Positions 5,161 through 34,800 of a stretch of 47,123 nucleotides of DNA are shown one piece after another; position 1 is the first letter of the stretch, and each line of letters starts with the position of its first letter. The DNA comes from a virus: positions 1 through 47,123 of the IMG/VR virus record IMGVR_UViG_3300017783_000044, one strand, 5' to 3'. A model generated the notes under the pieces. It made no database searches and was not told the DNA's origin. It saw only the letters and a program-made list of their open reading frames with translations. The position numbers were made by a program, and so were the translations under genes.

Positions 5161-7434
5161 TTAAGAAATTAGTTCACTGAATGAGACACCAGTTCTGGTG
5201 GCAACAAACGTAATTGTGATAAAGTTAATAGAACGTGCAGGTTTGATGAAAATTTCAGCAACCAACTCATTTCTATCAATAACATCTGGTGTGTTATTTG
5301 AAGTGTCGCATACAACTAAGAAGTCGTAAATACCTCTTCTACCTTGAACACCCCTTAAGTATGGTTCAACAGCGGATCTAAATCCTGCTCTTGTCAATTC
5401 ATCGTTAATTTCAAATAGTTGATACTTGGAGAAATTAGCAATATTTTTTTCAAGTTCAATAAACAAACGACGAACGTTAATTCTATCGAATGCTGAAGGC
5501 GAAGCAAGACCAGTCTTATCACCAAATAGAACAATACCTTGACCAGGGAATGATGTAATTGGGTTAATTCTATTTGTGTATAATCTATCTCTTTCAGCCT
5601 GTTTCGGACTATATGCAAGTTTAGTTGCATTTAGAACTTGACCTCTGTTATATCCCGCAGGAGAGAACCAGGTCTCAGAATTAATTGTTGTGGATAGACA
5701 TAGACCAGCAACATCAGCAGCACATGGTACATAACGATAAACATCATTATACTTATCATAAATGTATTTGTAACCAGAATCAAACATTGCATATGATGTA
5801 CTCGTTAAACCCCTAAAGAATTCAACAATGTCATCAGTTTTTTTAGATGTACTGTTTGAGTTAATTACTGCACTACGTGGTGGTGAACAAACCACAACGC
5901 AATCTCTTCTCTTCTCTGCAATTGCAATTAATCTAGAAACAACAGAGGCACTAATCGTACCAGGAACTAGGAAATCAATATCACCGAATACTTCGGGATC
6001 TTCTACTAGGTTATATCCAGTTACAATACCATCAACTACTGCTTGTTTCTTACTAGCAGTACTGTAATCATAGTCACCACCTGCTGAAAGAGTGTCGCCA
6101 TTTGTTGAAGATCCACTAAAACTGAATAGTTTGAACAAAGCGTTGTTTCCAGATACATTAGGATTTGTTTGTGTAAATCCTGCACCGTGACCAAGCAATT
6201 CAAGTAATTCAGTTGAAGTGTTTACAAATGAGTCATCACCATGATAGATGTATTCTGATTGGTTAGTTACAACTGTTTTCCAGAATTTTGTAGAACCTTC
6301 AGTTGTTTTAGCATCAGATGCTTTAGAGACATAAGTTAGTGATTCTAAAATTGTTCCAGGAACACCACTTACCTTTCCTTTAGTGTCAACTACTACAATA
6401 TGAAATTCGTCAAACTTACCTCCCCTATCAGAAACCGATACTGAAGTACCTGGTTGTGGTGCAACTGAAATCCATTTTCTACCAGTTGCATATTCTAAAT
6501 CACCATAGGTGTCATTACTAGTAACTGCAGTTACAGTCGCTACAGTATTACCAGATGCATCTTTAAGAACTTCAGTTCCGCTAAGTCTCTTCGTGGTATC
6601 CCATAGAGTAATTTCTAAAGTATCATTACCAATAGTCTTATACACATTACCTTTTACACTACTACCCCATGTAAGATAAGTTCCAGCAACTGGAAGAGCA
6701 GCACCGACTGTAGCAGCATCAAACGTTAAGTCTGCACCACCGCCACCACCAAGATTAGCATCGGAAACAGTGATGGTGTCATCTACTGCATATCCAGAAC
6801 CTTTAGCGGTAATTGTAACTGTTGCATCACCAGAACCGTCTACTACAATCGAGAAAGTAGCACCGGTACCTGAACCAGCAGCGCTATAATCTGAAGCACC
6901 GATTGTGTATGTGCCGGCAGTCCTTGATGCATCAGCAGCACCAACAGTATCCACAGTATCCAACTGTCCAGCAGCAGGTGTTACTGTTACTTTTTGGTCT
7001 GATCCGTGGTCAACAACTGAGACTGTTACATCGTTATTGAATGATCCGGATGTTCTAGCTGCCCACATGAAGGGTAAACTAGTTTTGGTTTCGTAATCGT
7101 CTTTATTTTTAATTAGTAAATCTGTCGCAGATGTACCGTCAGCCTTGATGTTTGCATTCTTAAGTCCGAGATCTGTTTCTCCTGATGGTCTAATGACTGC
7201 TACAACACCGCCGTACTGGATGACAGTTGATGCAGCAAACCAAGACTCAAAATTATTTGAGTTTGGACGACCAAAAATTTCGACAAGTTCTCTTTCGCTT
7301 GCAACGTAGGTTACCGCATCGGTAGGACCACGTTCAGCGTCAATAGCAACAACACCAATATTTTGATCAGCTACTGATACGGTAGCTGTAAAATCAAGTT
7401 CTTTGACTAGTACTCCGGGTGAAGCTAATGCCAT
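5161..7434 (-). CDS. 18: Contractile tail sheath protein gp18
   Basis: At 757 residues (T4 gp18 is 659) this is the contractile sheath subunit. The N-terminus MALASPGVLVKELDFTA is the standard myovirus sheath start. The C-terminal half carries the conserved core: FNRI-like RINVRRLFIELEK, FRSAVEPYLRGVQGRRGIYDF and a terminal strand with ARSINFITITFVATRTG. The extra length is largely a Gly/Thr-rich beta module at about residues 162-243 (DNA 6706-6951), with GSGTGATFSI, KGSGYAVDDTITV and NLGGGGGADLTF. This resembles modules found in other proteins of this window. It lies in the surface-exposed outer part of the sheath in known structures, so surface display is plausible. An AGAGGA site precedes the ATG. 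Confidence 0.97.
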   Translation of the reverse strand: MALASPGVLVKELDFTATVSVADQNIGVVAIDAERGPTDAVTYVASERELVEIFGRPNSNNFESWFAASTVIQYGGVVAVIRPSGETDLGLKNANIKADGTSATDLLIKNKDDYETKTSLPFMWAARTSGSFNNDVTVSVVDHGSDQKVTVTPAAGQLDTVDTVGAADASRTAGTYTIGASDYSAAGSGTGATFSIVVDGSGDATVTITAKGSGYAVDDTITVSDANLGGGGGADLTFDAATVGAALPVAGTYLTWGSSVKGNVYKTIGNDTLEITLWDTTKRLSGTEVLKDASGNTVATVTAVTSNDTYGDLEYATGRKWISVAPQPGTSVSVSDRGGKFDEFHIVVVDTKGKVSGVPGTILESLTYVSKASDAKTTEGSTKFWKTVVTNQSEYIYHGDDSFVNTSTELLELLGHGAGFTQTNPNVSGNNALFKLFSFSGSSTNGDTLSAGGDYDYSTASKKQAVVDGIVTGYNLVEDPEVFGDIDFLVPGTISASVVSRLIAIAEKRRDCVVVCSPPRSAVINSNSTSKKTDDIVEFFRGLTSTSYAMFDSGYKYIYDKYNDVYRYVPCAADVAGLCLSTTINSETWFSPAGYNRGQVLNATKLAYSPKQAERDRLYTNRINPITSFPGQGIVLFGDKTGLASPSAFDRINVRRLFIELEKNIANFSKYQLFEINDELTRAGFRSAVEPYLRGVQGRRGIYDFLVVCDTSNNTPDVIDRNELVAEIFIKPARSINFITITFVATRTGVSFSELIS

Positions 7435-7467
7435 TTCTTATATCCTCTATGAGATTTTTTCTCTGAA

Positions 7468-7484
7468 CTATTTAGTATTTACTA
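7468..7484 (-). promoter_or_regulatory. Late-promoter region upstream of gp18
   Basis: The minus strand has AGTAAAT followed by CTAAATAG, the latter at 7475-7468, 33 bases before the gp18 ATG. The 80-base gap upstream of gp18 is one of the longer non-coding stretches of the module. This box does not overlap a stop codon. Confidence 0.5.
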
Positions 7485-7514
7485 GTTTTTGAGGGGGGAA
7501 ACAATGCACGAACA

Positions 7515-7748
7515 CTACCAATCAGGATAATTGTAGTTTTGGATCTTGATATTTTTATAATATCTATTATCTTTAATTCTTTTTATAGTACATACTTTAC
7601 ATTCGTATGAATATGAGGATGGACAACTTCCTTTATGTTTTCTGCTCAAATAAAAGTCTTCTAATAAACTTTTAATTTCACCACATTTTTTACATTTTCT
7701 TTCAGAAAATAAAAGATGCTCTAAAGAAAATTGATCCGATAAATCCAT
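7515..7748 (-). CDS. Small zinc-ribbon-like protein
   Basis: This is a 77-residue unknown protein. Two CxxC pairs, CKKC at 19-22 and CKVC at 50-53, probably bind one zinc ion. The layout, with CxxCGE, then a DFYLSRK segment, then YECKVC and a basic helix, resembles the zinc-binding N-terminal part of phage endonuclease VII-like and HNH-type nucleases. No catalytic His-Asn-His or equivalent follows, so it may be only the DNA-binding half or a regulatory protein. Its start overlaps the stop of the upstream 67-residue gene by one base (TAATG). It sits between large terminase and sheath, which are adjacent in T4. Function is inferred weakly. Confidence 0.75.
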   Translation of the reverse strand: MDLSDQFSLEHLLFSERKCKKCGEIKSLLEDFYLSRKHKGSCPSSYSYECKVCTIKRIKDNRYYKNIKIQNYNYPDW

Positions 7749-7951
7749 TATAACTCCCTGTAAGCATAATCAAATATTATTCTATTAAGACTATCTCTCA
7801 TATACCATAAATGTTCTTGTTCATTCGCTGGTCTAGCAGGATAACCCTCCCATCTTTCTAATCTTTTTTCCACACAATGATGAAGTAATCTTATATCTTC
7901 TATACGAAGAGATACCTGATAATCATAATTTTCATTTGATCCTTGCATCAT
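7748..7951 (-). CDS. Conserved small cyanophage protein, unknown function
   Basis: This 67-residue protein has the sequence character of a compact helical domain, with SLRIEDIRLLHHCVEKRLERW followed by HLWYMRDSLNRIIFDY. It has no membrane segment or recognisable catalytic motif. Its start overlaps the gp17 stop (ATGA at 7948-7951) and its stop overlaps the next gene, so it is translationally coupled to the terminase. The second codon is also Met, so the start may be one codon later. A role alongside packaging is conceivable from context only. Confidence 0.75.
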   Translation of the reverse strand: MMQGSNENYDYQVSLRIEDIRLLHHCVEKRLERWEGYPARPANEQEHLWYMRDSLNRIIFDYAYREL

Positions 7952-9597
7952 TTATATTCCCACATATATGACATATCTCCATATTCATCTACTTTGTTCC
8001 AAACATCTCCAGACTCATCAACATAAACATCTTGATCATCAACACCATTTACAATAAACCCAAATGGTGCCATATCTTCTTCAATTGATTCACGTTGGTC
8101 TTCAAAAATTCTTTTTCTGACATCATCGGAAGTTAACTCTCTAAAATAGTCTTGAACTGCCAACCATGCAAAAATAACCAGACACATAGCAAGGTCATCA
8201 TTACATCCTTCTTCTGCTTCAAATGATTGTTTTTTCTGGATGAATGTTGTCATCTCAGCAATAATATCATAGTCGTTAATTAATAACTTATCATCTTCTA
8301 TAAGTGCTTTTAGATTTGAACATCCAGTTTTTTTAACGGTGGAAGTCATTTTGATACCTAACTGCGATTTATGTGAAAATCCTTGGCCAACAATTTGTCC
8401 AGCACGACCTCTCATCGCACACATTAAAAGATTTTCGTATTCCATATCAAATTGCATAATATCTGCAACCTGTCCACCAATATCATTTACCTCGCATAAT
8501 ACATATGCTTTATTATAACTTCTAGCAACAGGATCAATAATATTTGGAAATAACAATGGTTTGATCATATTGTTTTTATATTTAGCAACAACTCTATAAG
8601 GAATAGTAGTAATGTCTACAACAACAAACGCAGAATAATCATTACTAACACCTCTAGATACATCAACAGTCATTACATACTCATGATCTGGTAATGGTTG
8701 TTCATATACATCCAAACCATTACGTCTTTCTAATGGATCTTCATAAACCATTGTTCTTAGTTTGGATGCAGCAATGAGTGTATCTACAGATCCTAAGAAC
8801 TCGCATTCAAATTCCTGAGTAAACTGACGTTCAGATGTGTTCTTAATCGTCTGTTCTTTCCAGGCAGCGTCTCTGCCTGGTACTTGAGACCAATGGACTT
8901 CAGTTGTTGTATATTCGTTCTTACCCCTCTCAGCGTCATGCCAGAGCTTGTAGAACATGTTCATCCCATTTGGGGTTGAGATGATAATAACTTTGGTAGA
9001 TTTACCAGATGAGATAGTAGGATATACAGAGGAGAAAAACTGTTCAGCGATATGATTTGGAACGAACGCAAATTCGTCCAAGAAAATAATGTTAAATGAC
9101 ATACCTCGGACAGCAGAACTAGACGTTGATGCTGCAAGGATTTTAGATCCGTTTTCTAATTCTACATTACCCTTATTCCATGCAAGGATACCATGTTGCA
9201 TCCAGCGGGGTAAATTTTCATATGCTAACTGCAAACGGGATAGTAGTTCTCTTGAAGTCGATGCTTTGTTAGCAAGAATACCAATATTTACATTGTCATT
9301 AAATATGATATAATGAAGCAAGTAAGAAACAACAGTAGTAGACTTACCGGTCTGCCTGGGTAGTTTTGCAATGTTAAACCTATTCTTATGAAAACATTTT
9401 ACCATTTCCTCTTGGAAATCGTACAAGTTAAATGGTACTAAACCTTCATCTAGTGAAACAATTTTAATATAATTTTTAGCAAAATATACAGGATTTCCCT
9501 TACACTTAATAAACTCCTGAACTTGATCAGGAGTAAATTCTATTGGTGTATTAGCTTTTTTTAAATTGGGATTTCCTAAGTATATACTTTCAGACAC
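7948..9597 (-). CDS. 17: Terminase large subunit gp17 (packaging ATPase and nuclease)
   Basis: At 549 residues (T4 gp17 is 610) this is the motor that translocates DNA into the prohead and cuts concatemers. ATPase features seen are Walker A RQTGKS at 81-86, Walker B IIFLDE at 170-175 with Glu175 as likely catalytic carboxylate, and the coupling motif STPNG at 207-211. The C-terminal RNase H-like nuclease has VDVSRG with Asp312, VLCEVND with Glu369, and CNDDLA with Asp467 or Asp468. These match the T4 triad by order. The start codon is GTG: the base triplet at 9597-9595 reads GTG and no usable ATG lies nearby. A late-promoter box lies just upstream. Confidence 0.97.
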   Translation of the reverse strand: MSESIYLGNPNLKKANTPIEFTPDQVQEFIKCKGNPVYFAKNYIKIVSLDEGLVPFNLYDFQEEMVKCFHKNRFNIAKLPRQTGKSTTVVSYLLHYIIFNDNVNIGILANKASTSRELLSRLQLAYENLPRWMQHGILAWNKGNVELENGSKILAASTSSSAVRGMSFNIIFLDEFAFVPNHIAEQFFSSVYPTISSGKSTKVIIISTPNGMNMFYKLWHDAERGKNEYTTTEVHWSQVPGRDAAWKEQTIKNTSERQFTQEFECEFLGSVDTLIAASKLRTMVYEDPLERRNGLDVYEQPLPDHEYVMTVDVSRGVSNDYSAFVVVDITTIPYRVVAKYKNNMIKPLLFPNIIDPVARSYNKAYVLCEVNDIGGQVADIMQFDMEYENLLMCAMRGRAGQIVGQGFSHKSQLGIKMTSTVKKTGCSNLKALIEDDKLLINDYDIIAEMTTFIQKKQSFEAEEGCNDDLAMCLVIFAWLAVQDYFRELTSDDVRKRIFEDQRESIEEDMAPFGFIVNGVDDQDVYVDESGDVWNKVDEYGDMSYMWEYK

Positions 9598-9618
9598 AAC
9601 AAATTATTCCAACTGTAA

Positions 9619-9626
9619 TTATTTAG
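9619..9626 (-). promoter_or_regulatory. Late-promoter box upstream of gp17
   Basis: The minus strand reads CTAAATAA, 21 bases before the gp17 GTG, and overlaps the TAA stop of the upstream 99-residue gene. Confidence 0.5.
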
Positions 9627-9922
9627 AGGTCACCAAATTTATCACGCATATCTTCCATTTGTTTTTTCTTTTCTGAAAAAACACCATCGATATATCCTGC
9701 ACGATATTCCCAAGTTTGACCACCCTCTTGTCCTTTCTTAGGATTAATACATTGATGGTTACCTAGCTTGTTGCAAACAAGACCAGCAAGGTCAAGCTCA
9801 CTAGAATCAGATGAATCCCCAGTGCCACGCCAGACATGTGTACCATTAATCCAGGTGGCCCCGCACTTTTCGCATTCTTTCCTTTGCAATTTCAAATCAG
9901 ATAGTTGCTTTTCGTTTTCCAT
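9623..9922 (-). CDS. Small cysteine-containing cyanophage protein, unknown function
   Basis: This is a 99-residue unknown protein. It has CEKCG at 17-21 and a second Cys pair at 50 and 58 with His56 nearby, a possible zinc site. A Ser/Asp-rich loop lies at 35-44. The C-terminus is helical and charged (residues 80-99). It lies between gp16 and gp17, which are adjacent in T4, so the small genes here are a cyanophage-type insertion into the terminase region. A TGGTATAAT promoter element lies about 29 bases upstream, and AGGA precedes the ATG. A packaging accessory role is possible but unsupported. Confidence 0.75.
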   Translation of the reverse strand: MENEKQLSDLKLQRKECEKCGATWINGTHVWRGTGDSSDSSELDLAGLVCNKLGNHQCINPKKGQEGGQTWEYRAGYIDGVFSEKKKQMEDMRDKFGDL

Positions 9923-9950
9923 TAAAGTTCCTATGGTAAATGGTATTCAC

Positions 9951-9959
9951 ATTATACCA
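9951..9959 (-). promoter_or_regulatory. Extended -10 sigma70-type promoter
   Basis: The minus strand reads TGGTATAAT, a perfect -10 hexamer with the TGn extension. It lies 28 bases before the ATG of the 99-residue gene. No good -35 box is visible at 16-18 bases, which is acceptable for extended -10 promoters. It would allow host-polymerase transcription of this gene and possibly gp17 before the late phase. An inverted repeat TTAAG-T-CTTAA lies just upstream. Confidence 0.5.
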
Positions 9960-10001
9960 AACTATTTAACAAAGTTTGTATTGCTTAAGACTTAAATTAG
10001 A

Positions 10002-10133
10002 TTATGCAGACACAGAGTTATTATCTTTATCGTGTCTTTGGTATGCTGCTGGAGTTCTGGTTGTATTGTCTGAATTTCTTGCTTGATATGTTCCGGGTGT
10101 TCTAGATGTATTATTTGATTTTCTCGCCTGATA
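10002..10133 (-). repeat. Coding tandem repeat, 45-base period
   Basis: Two full and one partial copy of a 45-base unit encode the C-terminal repeats of the 88-residue protein (residues 46-88). Confidence 0.7.
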
Positions 10134-10268
10134 ATCATCATTAAAATCTTTCCACTGTCTTTGTGTCCACCCTTCATTACCATCGAAGTGTGTGACAGTT
10201 GTTGATCCTGGTTGAGATGAATCGGCCGTATTTGATTTGTCGTGCCTTACAAAACTTAAGTTAGCCAT
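10002..10268 (-). CDS. Small hydrophilic protein with 15-residue tandem repeats
   Basis: This 88-residue, highly polar protein is predicted disordered. It has tandem units of 15 residues: YQARKSNNTSRTPGT (46-60), YQARNSDNTTRTPAA (61-75), and a degenerate third unit starting YQRHDKDNNS at 76. The N-terminal RHDKSNT (8-14) resembles the third unit. There is no hydrophobic core, signal peptide or catalytic motif. The start is one base beyond the stop of the DUF6321-like gene, so the two are co-transcribed. Function is unknown. The Arg/Asn/Thr-rich repeats could bind nucleic acid or act as a packaged or scaffold peptide, but this is speculation. Confidence 0.72.
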   Translation of the reverse strand: MANLSFVRHDKSNTADSSQPGSTTVTHFDGNEGWTQRQWKDFNDDYQARKSNNTSRTPGTYQARNSDNTTRTPAAYQRHDKDNNSVSA

Positions 10269-10269
10269 A

Positions 10270-10692
10270 TTAGCAATTCCACTTCCTTAGTGATTTTGAG
10301 AGACGATCATCTCCGGTATTATTTGATGGTTTTTGACGCTTTCTCATTCCCTTCATTCGAGCGCAGAACGATGCCCTGCGGGGGTTTCCAACCTTTTTGC
10401 TTGGTGCCTTAAGGTCAGATCCTGGATTTTCCTTTTCATAAGATCTTCGTCCCTTTTCATTGAGACCTCCTTCTTTATTTTTGCCTGATTTTTTGGTCCA
10501 GGCTGCTGCTTCTTGTGTGAGTTCAAAACTTTCTTTGGCAGTCCTCGCCGCCTTCTTGAAAGCATCCTTGTCTGGGTAATCCGACTCTCCAGGACGTGCA
10601 GAACGCTCTCCTCGTTTTCGCTTTGCGTGGATATTTGCGTAGAGACCACGCTTAGCTTCAGCTAATTCTCTAAACTCTCTAAATGTCTTCAT
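10270..10692 (-). CDS. DUF6321-like basic protein
   Basis: This 140-residue, strongly basic protein is of a type widespread in cyanophages and other T4-like phages. Its conserved segments are YANIHAKRKRGE (19-30), ARPGESDYPD (32-41), AWTKKSGKNKEGGLNEKGR, and the C-terminal run with RRASFCARMKGM and DRLSKSLRKWNC. I recognise it as the DUF6321 type from memory; no function is established. The regular Lys/Arg and Gly/Asn composition suggests nucleic acid or virion contact, which is inference. It lies directly after gp16 with a late-promoter box between them, so it is probably expressed late with the packaging genes. Confidence 0.82.
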   Translation of the reverse strand: MKTFREFRELAEAKRGLYANIHAKRKRGERSARPGESDYPDKDAFKKAARTAKESFELTQEAAAWTKKSGKNKEGGLNEKGRRSYEKENPGSDLKAPSKKVGNPRRASFCARMKGMRKRQKPSNNTGDDRLSKSLRKWNC

Positions 10693-10715
10693 AATAACAG
10701 CGAGGGTTTACCTTA

Positions 10716-10724
10716 TTATTTATC
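10716..10724 (-). promoter_or_regulatory. Late-promoter box before the DUF6321-like gene
   Basis: The minus strand reads GATAAATAA, 23 bases before the ATG, and overlaps the gp16 TAA stop. Confidence 0.52.
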
Positions 10725-11126
10725 TGAATTCATCTGTTTAAGCATCTTCTGTAATTCAGATGTACTACCAACAAACATGGCATTATTTGTTACTGTTGTT
10801 GGACCCTTCTTCTCCTCATCTAGATCTTTCATTTTTTTCTGTAGATCTACTAGTTTATCTGATATATCAGCGACGTTTTTAATGAGGTTGCCTGCTACCT
10901 CATACGCTCTAGGATGGTCCGAATTCTGTGCTACGTCTAAAATACCATTTATTGCTTCTTGACCCTTTTCTATGAGGTTGTAGAGTTGTCCTCTAGTATA
11001 CTCATAATCAGTTTCAACATCTTTTTCTGTTTTTGCTTTTTTAATATCAACAACGGTTTGTTCTGCTTTTTCGATTACAGATTCAGTATTAAAAGTTTTA
11101 TCTAAATTTTCAAAAGTATCAGACAT
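10716..11126 (-). CDS. 16: Terminase small subunit gp16
   Basis: At 136 residues (T4 gp16 is 164) this recognises DNA and stimulates the gp17 ATPase during packaging initiation. It is largely helical, with a central paired-helix region of alternating heptads (about residues 55-110, containing YNLIEKGQEAINGILDVAQ and AYEVAGNLIKNVADISDKLVDL). This matches the coiled-coil oligomerisation domain of the family. I chose the ATG at 11126, because the upstream ATG at 11168 would overlap gp15 by 41 bases, while 11126 lies one base after the gp15 stop. The assignment rests on position between gp15 and gp17 plus helical architecture. Confidence 0.88.
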   Translation of the reverse strand: MSDTFENLDKTFNTESVIEKAEQTVVDIKKAKTEKDVETDYEYTRGQLYNLIEKGQEAINGILDVAQNSDHPRAYEVAGNLIKNVADISDKLVDLQKKMKDLDEEKKGPTTVTNNAMFVGSTSELQKMLKQMNSDK

Positions 11127-11127
11127 A

Positions 11128-12183
11128 TCAATACTCCGTCCATGATTCATTAAATCCGAAGTTGTCATCTGATTCTACAAAAGCATCATCAAGAGAGTTT
11201 ACAATTGAGAATGTTTGTTGACCAACTCCAGCTGAAGTAATATCTAATCCATACCCACGTTGAGAATTATATTTTGTAGCAGCTACTCTAAAGTTATCAT
11301 TATCAATTTTAACAATATAATATTCGTTACCGTCAACTAAACCACCAGCAGCACTTCCACCAGTTCCAACTCTATAAGTTACATAATCTGATGTTACAAA
11401 TCCATGATTCGTTAATGTAAATGTATTACTGTTAAAATTAACACCAGTAACTGCAGTACCATCATTATTATAGTCTTCAGTTGCTTTTGGTGTTGCACTA
11501 TACCTAACATATCGTGCGCCTTCTTTGATTGCTGCACCAATATCAACATTTACAGTTCTAATAACATCTGCAGACGAAATAGGACCATATAGATAAGTTT
11601 TAGCAACAAAATTTAAAGTATGTATTAAAGATCTTCTCTTAGTAAAGTCCCCTTCATAATCATCTTGTATACCAACATTACTTAATACTATAGGTATATC
11701 TTTTATTTCATTAGTTTTTTCAATAAGTTTTATTGTTATACTAAATACCGGTTGAAAATATGGTAAAATTTGTTCTAAAATTTGAACAGAGTCATCATTA
11801 TTTTTACTAATTATATTTAATTCAAAATCTAAATTATATGGTACTGGCGCATATTGTTTATATACTGCTTCAGTATCTCCATTTTTTGGACTAGTGCAGA
11901 TATTTACTGGACTCATTTTTCTGGTAGGATCATATGTTATTCCTTTCATTTCAAAAGTTATTCTTGGTAGTTGAATTTGAGTTTCAGCTCTACCATCTAG
12001 TCTTGGTTCTGCATCCAACCTTGCTAGAAATTTTTCTCTTGGTCCATAAGAAAGAGGAATTTTGAGAGTTTGTACAGTCTCTCCAGATGAATTAACTCTC
12101 CTTAACTCAATATTATTGAATAATGTTCCAAATCCAACAATAGTTTTACGTATAATTTCGTGATAAAAATGTGTTCCTAACAT
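11128..12183 (-). CDS. 15: Tail sheath stabiliser / tail terminator gp15
   Basis: At 351 residues (T4 gp15 is 272) this caps the top of the tail and joins it to the neck. The N-terminus MLGTHFYHEIIRKTIVGFGTLFNN is the family signature, and the core through about residue 215 follows the family pattern. Near the C-terminus, a beta module is inserted at about residues 246-328 (DNA 11200-11448). It contains TFTLTNHGFVTSDYVTYR, GNEYYIVKIDNDNFRVA and a Gly-rich end. This kind of module recurs in the giant protein of this window. The gene abuts gp14 with a one-base overlap and gp16 with a one-base gap. Confidence 0.95.
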   Translation of the reverse strand: MLGTHFYHEIIRKTIVGFGTLFNNIELRRVNSSGETVQTLKIPLSYGPREKFLARLDAEPRLDGRAETQIQLPRITFEMKGITYDPTRKMSPVNICTSPKNGDTEAVYKQYAPVPYNLDFELNIISKNNDDSVQILEQILPYFQPVFSITIKLIEKTNEIKDIPIVLSNVGIQDDYEGDFTKRRSLIHTLNFVAKTYLYGPISSADVIRTVNVDIGAAIKEGARYVRYSATPKATEDYNNDGTAVTGVNFNSNTFTLTNHGFVTSDYVTYRVGTGGSAAGGLVDGNEYYIVKIDNDNFRVAATKYNSQRGYGLDITSAGVGQQTFSIVNSLDDAFVESDDNFGFNESWTEY

Positions 12184-13508
12184 TAAAAGACTCCTTTGTT
12201 ACCATATTCTCCGAAAGGATTACCTTCCGTCCAATCTAAAATATTATCACCCTCAGTTTCAAAGAAGTCATTCTCTGCTTCAGGATCGTTCTCGTTTTCA
12301 ATAGAACTAAACGTATTTATCGTCCATTCAGCTCCACTTGTTAAACCTAATAACGTATCATTATCAGTAAACGCACCGACGATATCAGTTACTTCCAATT
12401 CTTTATTCGTAGTATCAAATCTAACAACAGTAGCAGTTGCTTCATTTGGCGAAGCTTCTATAGTTATAATTGGATCTGAGGTATATCCAGAACCAGGCGA
12501 CGTAACAGTAATTCCAGAGACTTGTCCTACAGAATTTATAGTAGTAGTTGCAACTGCACCACTTCCACCACCGCCACTAATAGTAACTGTTGGTGCAGAC
12601 GTATATTTAGCACCATTATCATATAAAATTATTGATGAAATAGCATCAAATGTTCTAACTGGAACAGCCTTGGCAGTATTTGCTCTAGATTTAACTGTCT
12701 CTCCAGTTTCAAAATTACCTCCGTCAGAAATTAAAGCGGTAACGGCAGCACCACTACCAGATCCTTGTATACTAACTATAGGTGCTGTTGTAAAACCAGT
12801 ACCAGGTTCAGTGACATTTACAGAAGTTACTACACCACTCGTGAGAGTTACACTAGCAGATGCCCCAGCACCAGGAGTACCTATTGATAATATAGTTCCT
12901 GATCCATAACCAGTTCCGCCAGCAGTAACAATGAAATCTTCAATACCATCTGTAACTTTAAATACCTGTGTATAACCAATATCTCTTCTAAGCTTATCAA
13001 TTTCTTCAACGCCAGTATCAAGTCTTTCATCACTATATTCCATTAGTTCAGCAACTAATCCATAAGTTTGGATAGCATCTAACTGTCTAAATGGTTTTTC
13101 GTGTTCTACAAATTTAATTTGAAATAATTGTTGTGTGAGTGGTAGATATATTGCATCGCCTTCATTTGGTCTAAAAGAACTTACCAAATTATTTGATGAT
13201 GATATTAAATCTTCCCATCTTCTTTTTGAAATTATAAATGTTGCTTCATCAGCAATTCTTACACCAAATTTAGTTAATAAAGAACCATCTCCCTCAAATC
13301 CTTCAAAATTTGAAATATACATTTCAATCAAATAATTTTCATCAAATTTAGAGAGAACATCTTCAGTAAAAAGATCATCTTCTTTTACTATTTCTCTTGG
13401 TAGATAATATACATCATGACCATAAATCTTTAAAGATTCAATAATCAGATCTTCGTATAACCTTTGTTCTGGGATTGTTCCACCAGAAAAATAAACATTT
13501 TTTGCCAT
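12183..13508 (-). CDS. 14: Neck protein gp14
   Basis: At 441 residues (T4 gp14 is 256) this forms part of the neck joining head and tail. The N-terminus MAKNVYFSGGTIPEQRLYED and residues 1-188 match the gp14 core. The extra length is a Gly/Thr/Val-rich block at about residues 190-362 (DNA 12423-12941). It is built of units such as GTGYGSGTILSIG, GTGFTTAPIVSI, YTSAPTVTISGGGGSG and GSGYTSDPIITIE. Such units suggest a repeated beta structure projecting from the neck. The family-typical acidic C-terminus, with DWTEGNPFGEYG, resumes after it. The gene lies one base after gp13. Confidence 0.94.
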   Translation of the reverse strand: MAKNVYFSGGTIPEQRLYEDLIIESLKIYGHDVYYLPREIVKEDDLFTEDVLSKFDENYLIEMYISNFEGFEGDGSLLTKFGVRIADEATFIISKRRWEDLISSSNNLVSSFRPNEGDAIYLPLTQQLFQIKFVEHEKPFRQLDAIQTYGLVAELMEYSDERLDTGVEEIDKLRRDIGYTQVFKVTDGIEDFIVTAGGTGYGSGTILSIGTPGAGASASVTLTSGVVTSVNVTEPGTGFTTAPIVSIQGSGSGAAVTALISDGGNFETGETVKSRANTAKAVPVRTFDAISSIILYDNGAKYTSAPTVTISGGGGSGAVATTTINSVGQVSGITVTSPGSGYTSDPIITIEASPNEATATVVRFDTTNKELEVTDIVGAFTDNDTLLGLTSGAEWTINTFSSIENENDPEAENDFFETEGDNILDWTEGNPFGEYGNKGVF

Positions 13509-13509
13509 A

Positions 13510-14487
13510 TCATCCTACAAGATCAAGTGGTGGAAGTTCATATGTACTCAGCATTTTACTTTCTAATTTATCTAACTCAGAAACCGCATCGTCATATAAT
13601 TGTCTTCCATTAAATTCTACGCCACCAGGCATCTTAATACCAGTAAATTTAATTAAATTTTGACCCCATTGTTTCTTAATTAATGAAGTTAAATATTCTT
13701 TCACAAATCTTTCATTGTATAATTTAGTAAATGTATCCGGATCTAAAGCTCTATAACAATCAATAACTATATAATCACCAGCAGCTACTCTACCCCAATC
13801 TAAATCTAAATAAAGTCTATTTTGAATTTTATTATATCTTATAGGTTTCTTTCCTTCCAATAAAAATTCTAAAGTTTCAAGATACTGCATAGTCATTTCT
13901 AAATTTAGCATATCATATGCATAAAAATTATAAAAATCATTTAAGAAAAATTGATATCTAAATCCAAACATATTGTTAACATGACTATTGGAAACTGGGT
14001 GTATTCCCATAATACCAATAACATGATCTGGTACTGTTAAATAACCCCTACCTTCCTCAAAATCCATTGTTCTACATCTGTCAGCAGTGCCAGTACCAGC
14101 ACCAACCCCTGTTGCAGTAAAAATTATACCCACAGTATTTGCGGATGCACCAATAGCAGTAAAATCAGTAGTACCTATACTAGTAATTTTATAACTACTT
14201 CCCACAATAAAAGATCCGGATATTACAGATGGATTATCACCAGAGTTTTGATCTTTCTCTGTGGTATCACTATTTCTTTTTTTACCGTTATCTAAATCTT
14301 CTTGTGTAAGTTTATATTTTAAATATACTCGCTCGCATCCATCATAAACCCTTTCATTGAAAAGTTGAATCGTATCATCAATTAGATCTTCTATTTGATC
14401 GTCATCAACATTTATTTCAATAACTGGTTTACCCAATTTACGGAGAGAGTACTCCTTTAATTCAGTCCTGCTGTTTGGTTTTGCCAT
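13510..14487 (-). CDS. 13: Neck protein gp13
   Basis: At 325 residues (T4 gp13 is 309) this is the head-completion neck protein bound under the portal. The N-terminus carries RTELKEYSLRKLGKPVIEIN (7-26) with DDQIEDLIDDTIQLF after it. The C-terminal half carries LNDFYNFYAYDMLN, ALDPDTFTKLYNERFVKEYL and KKQWGQNLIKFTGIKMPGG. All are gp13-like. A short beta insertion at residues 88-137 (DNA 14077-14226) has SYKITSIGTTDFTAIGA and GIIFTATGVGAGTGTA, a module seen in many marine phage structural proteins. Its start lies inside the 3-prime end of the upstream 69-residue gene (26-base overlap). Confidence 0.94.
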   Translation of the reverse strand: MAKPNSRTELKEYSLRKLGKPVIEINVDDDQIEDLIDDTIQLFNERVYDGCERVYLKYKLTQEDLDNGKKRNSDTTEKDQNSGDNPSVISGSFIVGSSYKITSIGTTDFTAIGASANTVGIIFTATGVGAGTGTADRCRTMDFEEGRGYLTVPDHVIGIMGIHPVSNSHVNNMFGFRYQFFLNDFYNFYAYDMLNLEMTMQYLETLEFLLEGKKPIRYNKIQNRLYLDLDWGRVAAGDYIVIDCYRALDPDTFTKLYNERFVKEYLTSLIKKQWGQNLIKFTGIKMPGGVEFNGRQLYDDAVSELDKLESKMLSTYELPPLDLVG

Positions 14488-14690: not shown

Positions 14691-14699
14691 TTATTTATC
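14691..14699 (-). promoter_or_regulatory. Late-promoter box before the coiled-coil gene and gp13
   Basis: The minus strand reads GATAAATAA, 19 bases before the ATG at 14671, and overlaps the TGA stop of the fibre gene (14698-14700). It could drive the neck operon gp13 to gp16. Confidence 0.52.
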
Positions 14700-17826: not shown

Positions 17827-20800
17827 TTATAATGCTAATGCAAGTGCTCTAAAGTTTCTAATCTTAGGACAATCACTTTGGTCATTACCAGCCATTATAA
17901 CTTTAATACTGAACTCTTGGAATTCTCTAAGTCCCTTGATTTCATAGTCAAATGCTCTATATTGTTTTTTGGTTTCTGATACTGGATAAGAAAGTGCAGG
18001 TATTTCAATATAATTCATACTATTAAAGGCCTCTGAAGTAGAATCACCTTTAATTTTTACAAATACTTTGATATCATTACTGACTGTTCTTATACCATCA
18101 AACATTACTTTAACTGATGTTGAACTAGTTTCTAGAACTACTTTCTTAGTAATATAAGCAGAATGTTTTCCTCCAAATGGAGGGGTTTCAGAAGTTAAAT
18201 CTAGATTACCATCAGCATCAATTTCTTTACTGAGTCTATTTGAAACAGTTATGATTGAAGATCCACCGAGATCAATTACTGGACTCAATCTATCATTAGT
18301 AGTTGACAGGTTAAGTGTAGAAGTTAAAGTACCAGACTGACCTCCAGTAAATTGAAGTCTATTGGGTTCTGATAATACTAGTCTAGGACTAGTTAATATA
18401 TTTTCTACAGTATTTTCAATAGCCTCAGAACTTATAGCATTAAATGATTGTTGAGAACTATTGCCTATACTGGTTCCACTAACAGATGTTAAATTAATAT
18501 CAACTGAAGTATTAACAGGTGAGAACATGTTAAAGTTTGGAGTTATATTTTCATATTGGATATTTCTAGTTGCAAGAGATCCAGAACCACCAGATTTTTT
18601 AGTATTACTAGCTGTAGTTTGAACTATAATTTCATATTCATCCAAACTGATTATTTTAGACACTGTATGTTCTTTATTTAAATCGGATAGAATAATTCCA
18701 TTGTTATGGAAACATTGAACAGTTGCGCCAGTTAAGTGTACTTCAGCAGTAGTTCCCAATACACCTCTAACACATCCTCGTAATTCTGTACCGACAACCT
18801 CAGTATAAGAAATTATCTCATTATCAATTTTTACAAATCCAGGATTATTTGCTGAAATTGAACCGTTATTAATAAAATTCCAACCCTCAACACTGGATGG
18901 AGTAAATGCAACTCCAGTAACGTCGGATATAATAATTGTCGTAGCATTAGACGTTATATTTGGAGTATTTGCAACTTGTGCATTTGAAGTTTCGGAGAAC
19001 ACATTAGAAATTTTTACCAAATTACCAACTTGATGCATACAATGATTTGGTTGGAACACTCTTATGGATGAACTTCCTTTAGTGAAACTAAATGGATTTG
19101 ATGATAATTTTTGTGGTTCTACTTTTTTATTTGGTAGAATTGCTGTGAATGTCGTATTGGTAGTAAACTGTGCCCTTCTCAGTTCAAATTTTACATCTTC
19201 ATATTGATCAGGTGTCCATATACTCTGGTTTGCTGATTTATATAGAACACCCACAAATGGTTGTTTGTCAATAATAAGTCCAGTAGTAACGTCCTCTTCA
19301 CCTAATCTAGAAACCCACATGTTGTAATTTTTAGATGTTGACCTAACAACAAAACAATAATCACTACTACTGGATAGATACAGTGGATTTTTAAATGTGA
19401 AAGTAGTTGATGCAGAAGCATCTATAGATGTATTAACTTTCGATGCTTGTACCGTAACATTAGAACCAGGGATAACATTTGAAGTGGGACTACCATTTTC
19501 CACAGTTCTTATGTCAAGAATAACTGGAGTAATATTATCCTTTGTCAAGAAGAATAGATCCAAAGAAGTTACAAAAATACCCCCTTCATCATCAACAAAG
19601 AATGACTGAGCAATAGGATCATGTCTTGGACCAGGTGGTGGTGGATTCGGAATAAATCTAGTTCTTTCTTGTGTAATTGTAGTTTCAGTAAGTTCTGGCA
19701 CTTCTAGTGTAGTTACGTTAGAAGTAACTTGTAATTCCGTACCTTGGGAATAGTAATAACCGGTTGCATAAGATCCAGAAAGTCCTTTAACTTGTACGTT
19801 ATCTGACTGATCAGACAATGAGAAAATTATATCACCAGTTTCAAATGTCAATGGTGGAATTAAAACAAATGCACTTAGATTACCATATTGATCTGAAATT
19901 AATTCCTGTTTAGTATTAGATCTTGCTCTAGCACCAGAAGAATCTCCCGTAATTAAAAATCTCTCTCCAATTTCTATAGGATCAATATCACTACCTTCCT
20001 CAGATCTAATTTGATCAATTGCTAAAATAGATTTATCTATTGATATAGAATCGTCAAAAATTGTAGGAAGTACAACAGTCGCTTTTAATGGACGATTTGG
20101 TATTACTTGTATTGAAATTTCATCATCTCTAATTGGAATTATAGATACAGTTTCACCAAGAACAAAACTTCCAACAACGTTATCTAAATTTCTAAGTAGT
20201 TTTGGATAGATGATACTAGAAGATTCCTTCTCATTAATATAGAAGAAGAAATTAGTATTTGGTTTCAATCCAAAACTATTAAGATTAACAATTCTAGACC
20301 TACTAAATCTTATGTCAGAAATACTATCAATAGTATCAGACTCTATCTCAAAGTTTAGAGCATCAATACCATATTGTGTTCCTGTCATAATATCGGTAAT
20401 TGTTGTACCTCCACCACCACTAACACTACCACCAGCACCATTTTGCCAATCTCCCCAAGTTTGACCAGTTGGCACAACCAAATCAAATAATGTTTGGAAT
20501 GGATCAGTTAAATTAATATTTTGGGTTTCTTCTATTGTTCTTTGAGTATCATACCAGATATCTTTCTTAGGAGAAACCTCCATGGTACCAATCCATGAAT
20601 ATACTTCATAAGGAAGTAGGTTTTCAACCCTACTCGAATATGGTTGAGAAACAAATGTAGTCTCTACAAAGGGGATAGTTATGTAAGTGTCATGTTTAAT
20701 TGCCGTACTAGAAGCATCGAAATTAAAACCAACATTATTGACATATGGATAAGGTCTTGCAAGATTTTTATCTAGATCAATTGAAGATGTATAATCTGGA

Positions 20801-25893: not shown

Positions 25894-28800
25894 AGAGATA
25901 ACTGTCGAAATATACAGGAGTATATGTGCTAGTATCATCCGGAGATTCAATTTGAGCACTGTGAGAGACTGCAGTTGTACCTGCAACACCCCTAGTGCAT
26001 CCATCTACTTGATTAGATGTTACTGTAGTATATTCAATCACTTCATTATTAATAATTATTCTAAATGTGTCATAACCGATACCAGGATTTTTAATATTAA
26101 CAGCTGTAAACACACCAGAACCGTCTATAACAGGTTCTAATACACATCCAGTACCTCCGCCACCTGTCAGTGCAATTGTAGTCTCACGATCATCATAACC
26201 ACTACCAGCTGATAGTATATCAATTTTTCTTAATTCACCACCAGAAATATAGACTTTAAATTGTGCTCCAGATCCACTAGGTGTACTATTATTGTTACCA
26301 GTTTGAGAAACAGTTATAGTTGGAGAATTTGAAGGTAATCCAGTAGTATTATCAAGTGATATAGTTTCTACATTTGCATTTATGTCAGATGATAACTTAG
26401 TAGCTCTTCTAACTTCTGTAGAATTTAACGGTTGTTTCTTATAAACATTTGCATTTACAGTTGGGAATACAATGTGATTATTAAAAATATTATGTCCTGG
26501 ATCAGTAACTTCAGCTGAAATAACATTTCCTCCACCAGTAAAACTAATTTTACCTGCTGAACGACCACCTCTACCAGTTCCAACAGTTTTTAACTTAACT
26601 GTATTTAAATATCCCGATCCATCGTTTGTTATATTCATGGAAGAAATATTTCCATTTGAAATTGTAGTAGTAGCAACTGTTTGAACAGGTGTAGTACCAC
26701 TATAAGATGATGTCGTTAATACAGTTGGAGATAGTATTGCAGTTACAACTCTAGAATCTTCACCATCCAATATAAGTTCATCACCAATAGAAATTTGATT
26801 GTTTCTACTAAAAGTTCTTATATCTTTATAAGTTCCACGGAAATCAAGAATTACTAATTTTGTAAAACTTACACTTGATACAAATTTAATATTAGAATTG
26901 AAAATATAATAATCATAGAGAGGACTCTGTATTTCACCATCTTTTATTACTAAAATTTGATTTTCAAAATCTCTAGGACGTGCAATATCAGCATCAGGAT
27001 AATAATCAACACCACCCTTCTTCAATCCAAAAGATGTTCCAGATTGATTATTAAGTGTATCTAATTTATCAAAACTACCAACACATCTAACACTAATTAC
27101 ATCAGTAGATATTGGAGCAGTTGTAAATTGAATTTGACTCTTAATATCTCCAGATAAAGTATAGTCAACACCAGGATCTAGTATTTTACCATTTTTAACT
27201 ACTAAAATACTAGATTCATGAGGAACATTATCATTACTTGTAGTACCGACTGGAACATAATTTTCCTGATCAAACTCTACAATGACAGATCTTGGTTTAG
27301 CAGAAACAAATGTGTGTACATAATTACCACCAGTAATTACTGAATTCGATAGAGCACTTACAAATGTATGAATTGACTTTTCTGGAGAAGGTCCAACATT
27401 TACGGTTATCGTTCCAACTGTAGTGTCGATTGAGGTAATTACTAATGGTGTATCATGTCTATCACGTTTTCTCTTTAAAGAACTTGTTACAGCACTTACA
27501 AATGTGTGTGCATATTGTTCACCTGATGGTGATGCACCAACATCAATATCAAAGGTATCAGTAGTTGCATTGAAAATTTGAATAAACTTACCGCTAATTG
27601 GATCGGTTGAACGAGGATATGCATGGTTACTACCATCACTATCCTTAGTACATGTAAATGTCAAAGCACCATCTTCTAACTTAATCCAATCATCATTAAC
27701 AAATCCATGACCAGTAAGTGTTATAGTTACAATACCAGTAGATGCAATGTAGGTAGCACTTTCTGGTGTATGAGGATCAACAAATGCTCTTGGATGAGAT
27801 AGTTGAGCTACATTGTTATCAGATGCACAAGTAAATGTTAGAGCACCATTTGATAATTTAATTTGTTCTCCAACATAAAGAGCAGACGCACCAGTAGTTC
27901 CAATATCTAAAACTAAATCACCAGTAACTGTATTGTAAGTAGTATTAGCACCAGGTGTGTAGTTAACTAGAGGAGATGTTCCAATTGGAAGAGTTATAGT
28001 ATTTGTAGTTGCCGAACCTACAGTAATAGTATTACCATAAACAGGGTCAGTAGTTCTTGGATAAGTTTTAACTCTGTAATTACCATCCATCGAACATGTA
28101 AAACTCAATGAATCAGAAGCAATCTTAACCACAGAACCATTAGACAATCCGTGATTTGGAATAGTCAAAACCAAATTACCATTACTGGCATTATAAGTTG
28201 CTCCAGTTGGACTCAAGAATTTCTCACCATCCATTAAATTAAATATAGTGTTAGTATTATTAAATGGTGAATTTAATGGATCCAAAAGATTAACAACACC
28301 ATAGAATTTAATTGCAAACAGATTACCAGTTGTATGAGCAGAATTTAATGTAATGGTTGAATCATTATTCCATGTAAAATCACCGAGTTCTTCAAATTTC
28401 CAAGTGTTATTTGAAAATACTACTACATTTTCTTTCTCAGTTGTTTGAGATGAACTTATCGTATATTGATTACCACTTACATTAGTTAAATTTATCAATG
28501 CATTATCAAGCATTCTAATCATAAACACTTCATCATCATGTTGAGGTGCAGTTGTAAATTGAATTTGTCCTCTATTTGCTGTTAATGTATATTGTTGTCC
28601 TGGATGTTGTACAACACCATTAACAGACACTAAAATATCTGCATTTGACGCTACATTAGTGACATTAAGATTTAAGTTATTGTACAGTAACCTAAAGTTT
28701 TTTCTAGTCCCGTTAGGACATTCAGCGGGATCATCAACAATAAGAACTGATGGATATTTAACCACAAAAACTTGTGTTGGGGTAATTCCATCTGCATGAT

Positions 28801-31800: not shown

Positions 31801-34800
31801 CAAAATTATTAATTACTTTTGCTGCTGCTGGAGTATTAATATAGTAATTAACATTTTTATTGGAAGTTAGACTTGTTCCAATAGAATTATACTTTATATT
31901 TTTAAGTTTACCTATAGAATTTGAATCTGTTTGAATAATTGCTTGACCATCACCAGCTGGGGTGTCAATTGTACCTTTTTTAATTACACCAGTAACTACT
32001 GGTAATCTTCTATAGTTAAATCCTTTATTTGAAATAGAAACTTCTTCAATTGGTCCACTAGCGCCAAAAGATTTTATATTATAAAAAATCTTTTCTTTCT
32101 CATAAAATTCTGTAGATTCTGGAAACTCTACAGTAAATTCTTTTCTAAAATTATCTACAGAAAATACTTTATGTAAACCAAAATAATCTTTTACTATATT
32201 AAGTTCGTAAATATATTGTTGACCACTTGTTCCAGCAGTTAAATGTAAATATAATCTGTTGGGGATTTTTTGTGCATTTAATATAATTGTATCAGCAGGA
32301 GATTTTTCTAAAGTAAAATATTCATTTACAGATTCAATATCATATGTAAGTTTAAATTCTGAATTAGCCCTTAAATTAAGTTTATAGATATATCTAAAGT
32401 TTAAATTAAGAGAAAATACTTTTTTATCTTTAAACGTGTTTATGTTTTGATTTTTGCGTAAAAATAGATCAATATTAGTTAATTCTACCAATTTATTACT
32501 TACAGATTTAGGATTAGATGGGTTGTTAAATTGAATTTCGTGTAAGTTAACTTCGACTGGAGAATCAGAATTAGTCATAGCAGTATAATCAAAGTTGATA
32601 TAATCACCAACAATCAAATTATGATTTTCTGTAGTTCTAAAAGTTACTTTTCTATAATCATCATTTATTGAATTAATTACAGCAATTATTTTTTTACCAC
32701 CAACTTTTGAAATAAAAGCAGAAAAACCAGATCCAAATGTACGATCGTTATTAACCTCTAATCTATCTCCAACTCTATAGTTACTACCTTTATTTTCAAT
32801 AATTACAGAGTCAACAGAACCTGGTGTTACTTTATCAGTAGAAAAAACAGTTTTTACAATTTTGTTATCTTCTGATGGATATTCATCATTAGCACTTAAT
32901 CCAGGAAAACCAAGTAATGGTGATGGATCAACTTTCTTTTCAAAAATTCTGGTGAATCTGCTAGGTATCTTATCGTTTGTTCTACACCTAGTATTCATAT
33001 ACGTATCATATTCTCCAGCAAATGTATCTCCAATAAAATAAGGGAATCCATTAAAAGATACACTTTGATTTGCAATTAGTGCATTAGTGACAGGATCGTA
33101 AGATTCTCTGGTTGCATAATAAACATATCTACCAGCAGGAAATTCTGGTGTAATAGAGAATCTGCCATTATGAATATCTAGGGCATCATTATTTCCCTCT
33201 ACAAACTCATAATCCTCAATAAAAGTGCCCATTGGATAGTCACTTAAGGAAGGACCACCAATTCTATTAATATAGTAAGTTGTACCACCTACTACAATTG
33301 ATTGTTCACCAGAAACACTAGATGAAGTAGTATCATGTTTAAATTTATATCTAGATTTAATCTCCTCAAGAGGGTTGGTCCCACCATCAACTGTTGATGG
33401 TTTAGTTCTATCTTGATTTACCTTATTAGAACCATATATTGGAATACCATCATAAGAAATTGCTATTGCTGGAGAGTGTGTATAAGCGGCTATAACTTGA
33501 GCGTCAGTACCAGTTATACCTTTCTTATCTCTAATATGACGTGCTAGTAATTTATCTGCATTTTGTATTAAGTGATATTGTTTCTGGTCATCACTAGCAG
33601 GGAAATCTAATTTATAGTCAATTACTTTAAATGAATTAGGATTATTTGATGATGGTGTAGAATCACCACTATCATATACATATCCACCAAAATCATCAAT
33701 TCTATCGTACTTGTTTAATTCTCTAACTAAGTTAAAAGTCCATTCTCTTAATTTAGCTGTAATCGAACCACCAGAACCAGCAGATGTTATCTTAATTCTT
33801 GGGGCGGATTGATATCCAGAACCTTCATTGATAATATTAAATCCAACTACACTTCCAGAATCATTTATTATTGATTCAACAACAGCATCAATAGTATTTT
33901 CACCATTACCTATTACTTCCACTTTTGGCGGAACATTATATAATGAACCGAAACTTAATAATGATATAGAAGTAAGTTTTCCTTGTGATATTAAACTAGT
34001 AGCTTCAGCATCAACACCACCATTAATGGTTACAGTTGGTGCTATAGAATAATTTTTATCTATAACAGTAAAATTTTCAATAACGTTAAAGTTTTCATTA
34101 TCAAAATTATGATAGGACGTAAGTGGTCCTGACAATTCTACAAAAATATCTTTATCAACACTAAATGGTATGCTAATTGGATTTGCTAATCCTCCACCAA
34201 AAATTTTAATTTCAGGCAATTCAATATATCCTTTACCAGATTTTTTAATTACAATGTTATCTATTTTACCATTTTTGTAACTTAACTCTAATTCCGATTC
34301 TTCAAAATTTAATGGATTTTGTTGATTTCTTTCAAATTTAAATTTAATATTAGTATCAATAATTGGTGAACTATTAAACGATGATACTGGGTTTCTCTTC
34401 AATGAAACTTTATTGATATTTAATAAAGCATCAGATTTTGTTTTATGAATAGTAAAATTATCAGTATCAATTGTTTGTACAAAATATTTTGTATTTGAAA
34501 TTAAACTAACAAAATAATTATCATCTGATGTAAATGTAATTTCATCACAAGTTTTTAAATTGTGATTAGTAAAATTAATTACATCAGTATTATTCAAATT
34601 GCCATAATCGGTAAAAGATAAAACTAATTGTGGGTTATTATTAACTACTTCGATGTTTGGTTTTTCTGTAAAATTCTCTAGATCTGATTTAAAGTGATTA
34701 TAGATCTTAGTAAAATTAATTTTACTAATTCCAGCAGAAATTTTAGTGAAGTTTTTGTTATTTGTTTCATCAGATTGAGTAACACCCGTGTCTAAACTAG

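Follow-up and report, generated by a model that had tools for sequence, protein, structure and literature searches.

Variable slots filled by small Gly/Thr-rich modules in the neck and sheath proteins of a marine T4-like phage

Inserted blocks in gp13, gp14, gp15 and gp18

The DNA analysed here (the window, 47 kb in full) is part of the genome of a T4-like marine myovirus, a relative of cyanophages. Among cultured phages, the closest show less than 60% identity to it in gp14 and gp15; in gp18 the best full-length match reaches about 43%. Four of its genes, identified from PHROG, Pfam and PDB matches, encode gp13, gp14, gp15 and gp18 (Table 1), and the conserved cores of all four are homologues of the T4 proteins of the same name, as judged from the PHROGs and from PDB matches to T4 gp13, gp14, gp15 and gp18. 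Each core is interrupted by an extra block. The earlier note had placed four such blocks, and its coordinates nearly coincide with the matches of module profiles built from the window blocks together with those of close relatives; alignment of the relatives, in which the same places are either filled or empty, bears out that the blocks are insertions in conserved proteins. The gp14 block consists of two separate insertions, one preceding the motif GxFxxGExVxS (slot a, approximately residues 188–264) and one following it (slot b, approximately residues 283–352).

The blocks belong to at least three unrelated families in the window, M1 (gp13), M3 (gp15) and M2/M4 (gp14 and gp18), and a further family, M5, occupies the gp15 slot of other cyanophages. 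With hhalign, M2 and M4 are the sole linked pair (96.9%), M1, M3 and M4 being mutually unlinked, which rules out a single module family for all blocks. No Pfam or NCBIfam family covers any of the four blocks, and in scans at E values up to 10 they gave no match to Ig-type families, a difference from the Ig-like domains of phages. Within the modules dN/dS is 0.10–0.41, that is below 1, and the modules are therefore under purifying selection.

Two smaller features were seen next to these genes. The genes for gp15 and gp16 share 41 bases on the same strand (11128–11168), where the former ends and the latter starts, and a small ORF at 7748–7951, in the interval between gp17 and gp18, explains about 200 bases that one relative (L235) lacks there.

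Table 1. Genes, inserted modules and module relatives in the window (window coordinates)
Feature	Position	Strand	Match or evidence
gp13 neck protein, head-tail adaptor (325 aa)	13510..14487	-	phrog_211, E 3e-43
gp14 head closure/neck protein (441 aa)	12183..13508	-	phrog_460, E 8e-126
gp15 tail sheath stabiliser/terminator (351 aa)	11128..12183	-	PF16724, E 3e-82; phrog_227
gp18 tail sheath protein (757 aa)	5161..7434	-	phrog_23, E 1e-123
M1 module, gp13 slot, aa 88-137	14077..14226	-	profile match 14083-14220, E 2e-25
M2 units, gp14, two separate slots, aa 190-362	12423..12941	-	profile matches 12765-12959 (a), 12453-12659 (b)
M3 module, gp15 C-terminal slot, aa 246-328	11200..11448	-	profile match 11200-11442, E 7e-38
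M4 module (subtype S1), gp18 slot B, aa 162-243	6706..6951	-	profile match 6706-6945, E 3e-34
M2/M4 units near C-terminus of giant protein	26066..26371	-	E 1e-9 to 1e-3
M2 units, giant protein (GSGYQSAPRIKI)	33785..34087	-	iterated profile, E 2.5e-14 and 1.8e-9
M3 relative, giant protein	34421..34591	-	E 6e-12
M5 relative, giant protein	37022..37183	-	E 5e-9
M5 relative, 2130-aa protein	18712..18840	-	E 7e-8

Slot contents among relatives

About 300 IMG/VR loci (numbered here with the prefix L) were retrieved as a comparison set, with gp17, gp13, gp18 and the gp15 core as queries. Among them the slots vary in content, and the description of the blocks as exchangeable modules is supported; the gp13 and gp18 modules are also discordant with their host proteins (see below).

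In gp13, M1 is a clean insertion of 50 residues in the window and in L235, L081, L252, L309 and L306, and is missing from L234, L236, L232, L237, L251 and others. Mapped on the core tree of gp13, its presence requires four changes, of which no fewer than three are forced by supported branches. The trees of the modules themselves rest on few alignment columns; that of M1 (48 columns) has two changes and does not distinguish one entry into gp13 from several, and the copies may all stem from one entry, with recombination and loss thereafter. In more distant phages the slot is occupied by an M3-like module (L088, L090 and L105, E 2e-16 to 1e-19) or an M4-like module (L021, L034 and L058, E 3e-5 to 2e-4), so that its states among relatives are empty, M1, M3-like and M4-like. 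The pair L235 (with M1) and L234 (without) differs in gp13 by 150 bp, in frame, and differs in the gp18 module too, the stretch between these two differences being mostly about 75–98% identical. A predicted gp13 model (pLDDT 67; Z 14.4 to T4 gp13, 9lu4) was of low confidence and too weak for placement of the slot.

Elsewhere in the window gp13, most of the segment equal to T4 gp13 residues of about 190–239 (the fibritin-binding domain III) is missing, and this suggests that the phage has no whisker attachment of the T4 type. The place of the T4 fibritin gene wac, adjoining gp13, is taken by a protein of 766 residues (14698–16998) with repeats of the form TTQNVFN.TATTVNAFGAAT.INIGA and a best match to phrog_15769 (unknown function); it could be a local neck or tail fibre.

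The two slots of gp14 occur in all four on/off combinations: both are filled in the window clade, only a in L071 and others, only b in L129 and neither in L054, with one locus each for the last two. The number of units varies further in L085, L243 and L245. Two gp14 proteins are unusually long (L047, 1066 aa; L097, 843 aa), with three or four M2 matches. The C-terminal slot of gp15 is, in marine relatives, empty (20 residues) or filled by M3 (104–107 residues) or M5 (87–88 residues), and these three states require six changes on the gp15 core tree.

In gp18, M4 comes in two subtypes, S1 and S2, giving the states none, M4-S1, M4-S2 and other; the module is missing from L234/L179, L187 and L015. 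At least ten changes among these states are required on a core tree of 50 sequences, the branches of which are mostly well supported. An ORF of L181 (1–2526) encodes a gp18 with two M4 modules in tandem.

Discordance with host proteins and copies in other virion proteins

Comparison of module and core shows that the gp18 and gp13 modules do not follow their host proteins. For gp18, the window and L173 are 87% identical in the module and 66% in the core, against 53% and 75% for the window and L235, and 47% and 86% for L161 and L235. Silent divergence between the window and L160 is 0.13 in the gp18 module and 0.53 in the rest of the gene (p 1e-11), beneath that of every other stretch of the same length in the gene. 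For M1 of gp13, the corresponding values are 0.14 and 0.45 against L081 (p 1.5e-4) and 0.22 and 0.46 against L309 (p 1e-3); the contrast is weaker against L235 (p 0.014), for which other stretches of the gene are equally low. With silent-site divergence in the modules of gp13 and gp18 well below that of the remainder of each gene, these modules were exchanged recently between some phages. The same search for recent exchange in M3 of gp15 (window against L235) gave no sign of it, the module diverging as the rest of the gene does (p 0.27), and M3 looks to have been inherited vertically within the clade of the window. The earlier note had held that the blocks would be ancestral parts if all close relatives carried them with matching phylogeny; this is not so for gp13 and gp18, because close relatives differ in their blocks and the phylogenies mismatch, and M3 of gp15 is the part for which vertical descent within the clade is indicated.

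Units of the same families occur well beyond these four proteins. A giant protein of 3,833 residues in the same genome contains M2/M4, M3 and M5 units, and the proposed relatives of the gp14- and gp15-type units were recovered there, the first at 33788–33976 (E 4e-4) and the second at the position given in Table 1. M5 also occurs in gp18 proteins, near the position of T4 domain I, as well as in the giant and the protein of 2130 residues (big1). A phrog_697-type structural protein of L061 has a copy with 78% identity to the gp18 module M4; the C-terminal part of the gp18 of L061 itself is 55% identical to that of the window. Copies about 75% identical to M4 are present in VrlC of P-RSM4 and, among other cyanophages, in large virion proteins. 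M1 is present in at least 289 viral contigs, and in other phages the proteins that bear it include minor tail (phrog_290), J-like tail fibre (phrog_31) and virion structural (phrog_3287) proteins. The reading of M1 as a cellular domain was rejected: 84,980 species genomes gave at least three matches, those listed being all on MAG contigs, against the 289 or more viral contigs. The idea of one module pool spread along the virion is thus retained in part, as families are common to gp13, gp14, gp15, gp18 and the giant, and has to be amended in part, as the pool is made up of several unrelated families (hhalign). A weak M1-like stretch (E 0.008; YKIEKLGNTLWEKAAGLDSAKIGDVFEA...GTG) was also seen near the C-terminus of a 1332-aa protein, at 41249–41362.

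Position on the virion and possible roles

The blocks had been described as absent from the T4 proteins. By alignment this holds for gp13, gp14 and gp15, but T4 gp18 has a protruding domain I of its own (residues 98–188), which is set into outer domain II, stands out from the tail without subunit contacts, and binds the baseplate and the retracted long tail fibres (PMC3004832). T4 domain I (PF22639) resembles the window M4, in which strands are predicted, in being an extra beta domain of the outer sheath region, and differs from it in its insertion point along the sheath chain: it comes after residue 97 and precedes the strand matched by window gp18 residues 124–141, whereas M4 lies beyond that strand, elsewhere in the same outer region. 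In other marine sheaths, M2 and M5 modules sit close to where T4 has domain I. The gp18 block and T4 gp18 share a GSxYxVGDxITV motif, a weak likeness (hhalign 34%), and M4 scored 15.8 bits against PF22639, below the cut-off of 27; these values do not establish T4 domain I and M4 as homologues. The predicted gp18 model (pLDDT 83) matches T4 gp18 with Z 27.3 over 377 residues at 2.7 Å, with strands predicted in M4 at residues 174–244 (pLDDT 74–88); fold searches with the whole model returned the dominant sheath core and not the M4 module alone. By analogy with T4 gp18, and from the alignment and the model, the gp18 modules very probably face outward.

T4 gp13 is a dodecamer, and T4 gp14 and gp15 are hexamers (PMC12270204, PMC3004832), with gp14 residues 178–256 touching gp15 residues 203–245 (PMC12270204). 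In alignment the window gp14 and gp15 slots fall in or near the arms equal to these contact arms, and the modules of gp13, gp14 and gp15 would cluster round the neck joint. The proposal that modules coat the whole tail was not upheld, only gp18 of the four proteins being tail-long and outward exposure being indicated, through analogy with T4, for the outer part of gp18 only.

Related arrangements are known. Smug et al. 2023 (PMC10684548) found that phage proteins with no other relationship have fragments in common, with recent shuffling in tail proteins and neck passage proteins among the cases and with mosaicism hotspots in receptor-binding proteins, endolysins and polymerases and no mention of the sheath. 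The present case is similar in that homologous fragments occur in unrelated proteins (M4 in L061, and M1) together with recent exchange; it differs in that a set of small modules occupies fixed slots of T4-type adaptor, closure, terminator and sheath proteins. A comparison by Evseev et al. 2022 (PMC9230969) dealt with the extra domains, often Ig-like, of 112 phage tail sheath proteins, and a role in adhesion or stability was suggested for the beta domains added on the outside of the sheath core. The window gp18 likewise has an extra, predicted beta module on the outer side of a conserved core; their study concerned sheath proteins only, while here presence, absence and replacement within a slot are seen in close relatives and the module families are traced to other proteins. 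Finally, PMC10684548 and PMC9230969 both cite the promiscuous Ig-like domains of Fraser et al. 2006, which are small beta domains exchanged among unrelated virion proteins of diverse phages; as far as those citations describe them, the window modules resemble them in being small, accessory and common to unrelated virion proteins. In the open-licence literature, no paper was found to describe slots of this exchangeable kind in the gp13, gp14 and gp15 proteins of T4-like phages.

We consider it probable that the slots are refilled by recombination from a shared pool of accessory modules. The core neck and sheath proteins would have permissive surface loops that serve as slots: gp13 has one, gp14 two, gp15 one (close to its C-terminus) and gp18 two (in its outer part). 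Each would accommodate, with the reading frame kept, a small beta module rich in Gly and Thr and some 45–100 residues long. The modules would be drawn from a pool of unrelated families common to many virion proteins, and recombination would add, remove and replace them with the conserved core left undisturbed, recently so in gp13 and gp18, the gp15 module being retained within the clade of the window. As folded, outward-facing, accessory decoration they might make weak contacts with the host surface or with fibres and/or brace the neck and sheath; we infer two leading roles, accessory adhesion or fibre docking and mechanical bracing.

It is possible, though we lean against it, that the modules chiefly brace neck and sheath joints and make no host contact, as is thought of the neck decoration proteins of Staphylococcus phage 812, the necks of which are often deformed or broken when these proteins are lacking (PMC12886913). 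The location of the slots of gp14 and gp15, which lie within or close to arms that contact each other in T4 (PMC12270204), and the purifying selection on the modules fit such a role. Close relatives lack the gp13 and gp18 modules, however, so bracing by these would not be essential, and a specific joint is hard to square with unrelated modules being exchanged rapidly. Rather less likely, in our estimate, is that marine T4-like phages have a plug-in surface, in which slots on several neck and sheath proteins, refilled from the common pool, give each virion a fast-changing coat, and that this coat, and not the tail fibres, governs contact with the host or the docking of fibres. That the modules are dispensable loop filler, spread by chance recombination and devoid of function, would agree with the empty slots common in close relatives, but is unlikely in view of their dN/dS and of their high conservation in unrelated proteins of distant phages.

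A very improbable reading is that the blocks are ancestral, vertically inherited and lost in some lineages, with no exchange. gp15 comes closest to it, since every close relative with a complete slot has M3 and the module matches the rest of the gene in silent divergence (window against L235). For gp13 and gp18 it is already contradicted: unrelated modules occupy the same slot in relatives, module and core identities of gp18 are discordant, silent divergence of both modules lies far under that of the rest of the gene, and near-identical copies exist in unrelated proteins. A resemblance owed only to the Gly/Thr-rich, low-complexity composition that the blocks do have can hardly be entertained, as the five module profiles gave zero matches to reversed proteins at E<1e-3 and the four seed models zero to reversed or shuffled gp13, gp14, gp15 and gp18, a decoy test that refutes chance or composition as the source of a likeness amounting to 70–85% identity over 46–80 residues between copies in unrelated proteins, and for M4 to 73–80% at the DNA level.

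The proteins gp13, gp14, gp15 and gp18 belong to the conserved T4-like core and carry fast-moving cassettes at defined points, and whole-length alignments of the four are unsuited to phage trees. Natural close pairs with and without a cassette, such as L235 and L234, make the role of accessory beta modules directly testable. Because the same spots are empty in relatives, or filled with unrelated blocks that are found in other phage proteins, T4-like marine phages seem to rebuild their exteriors through the exchange of short protein segments.
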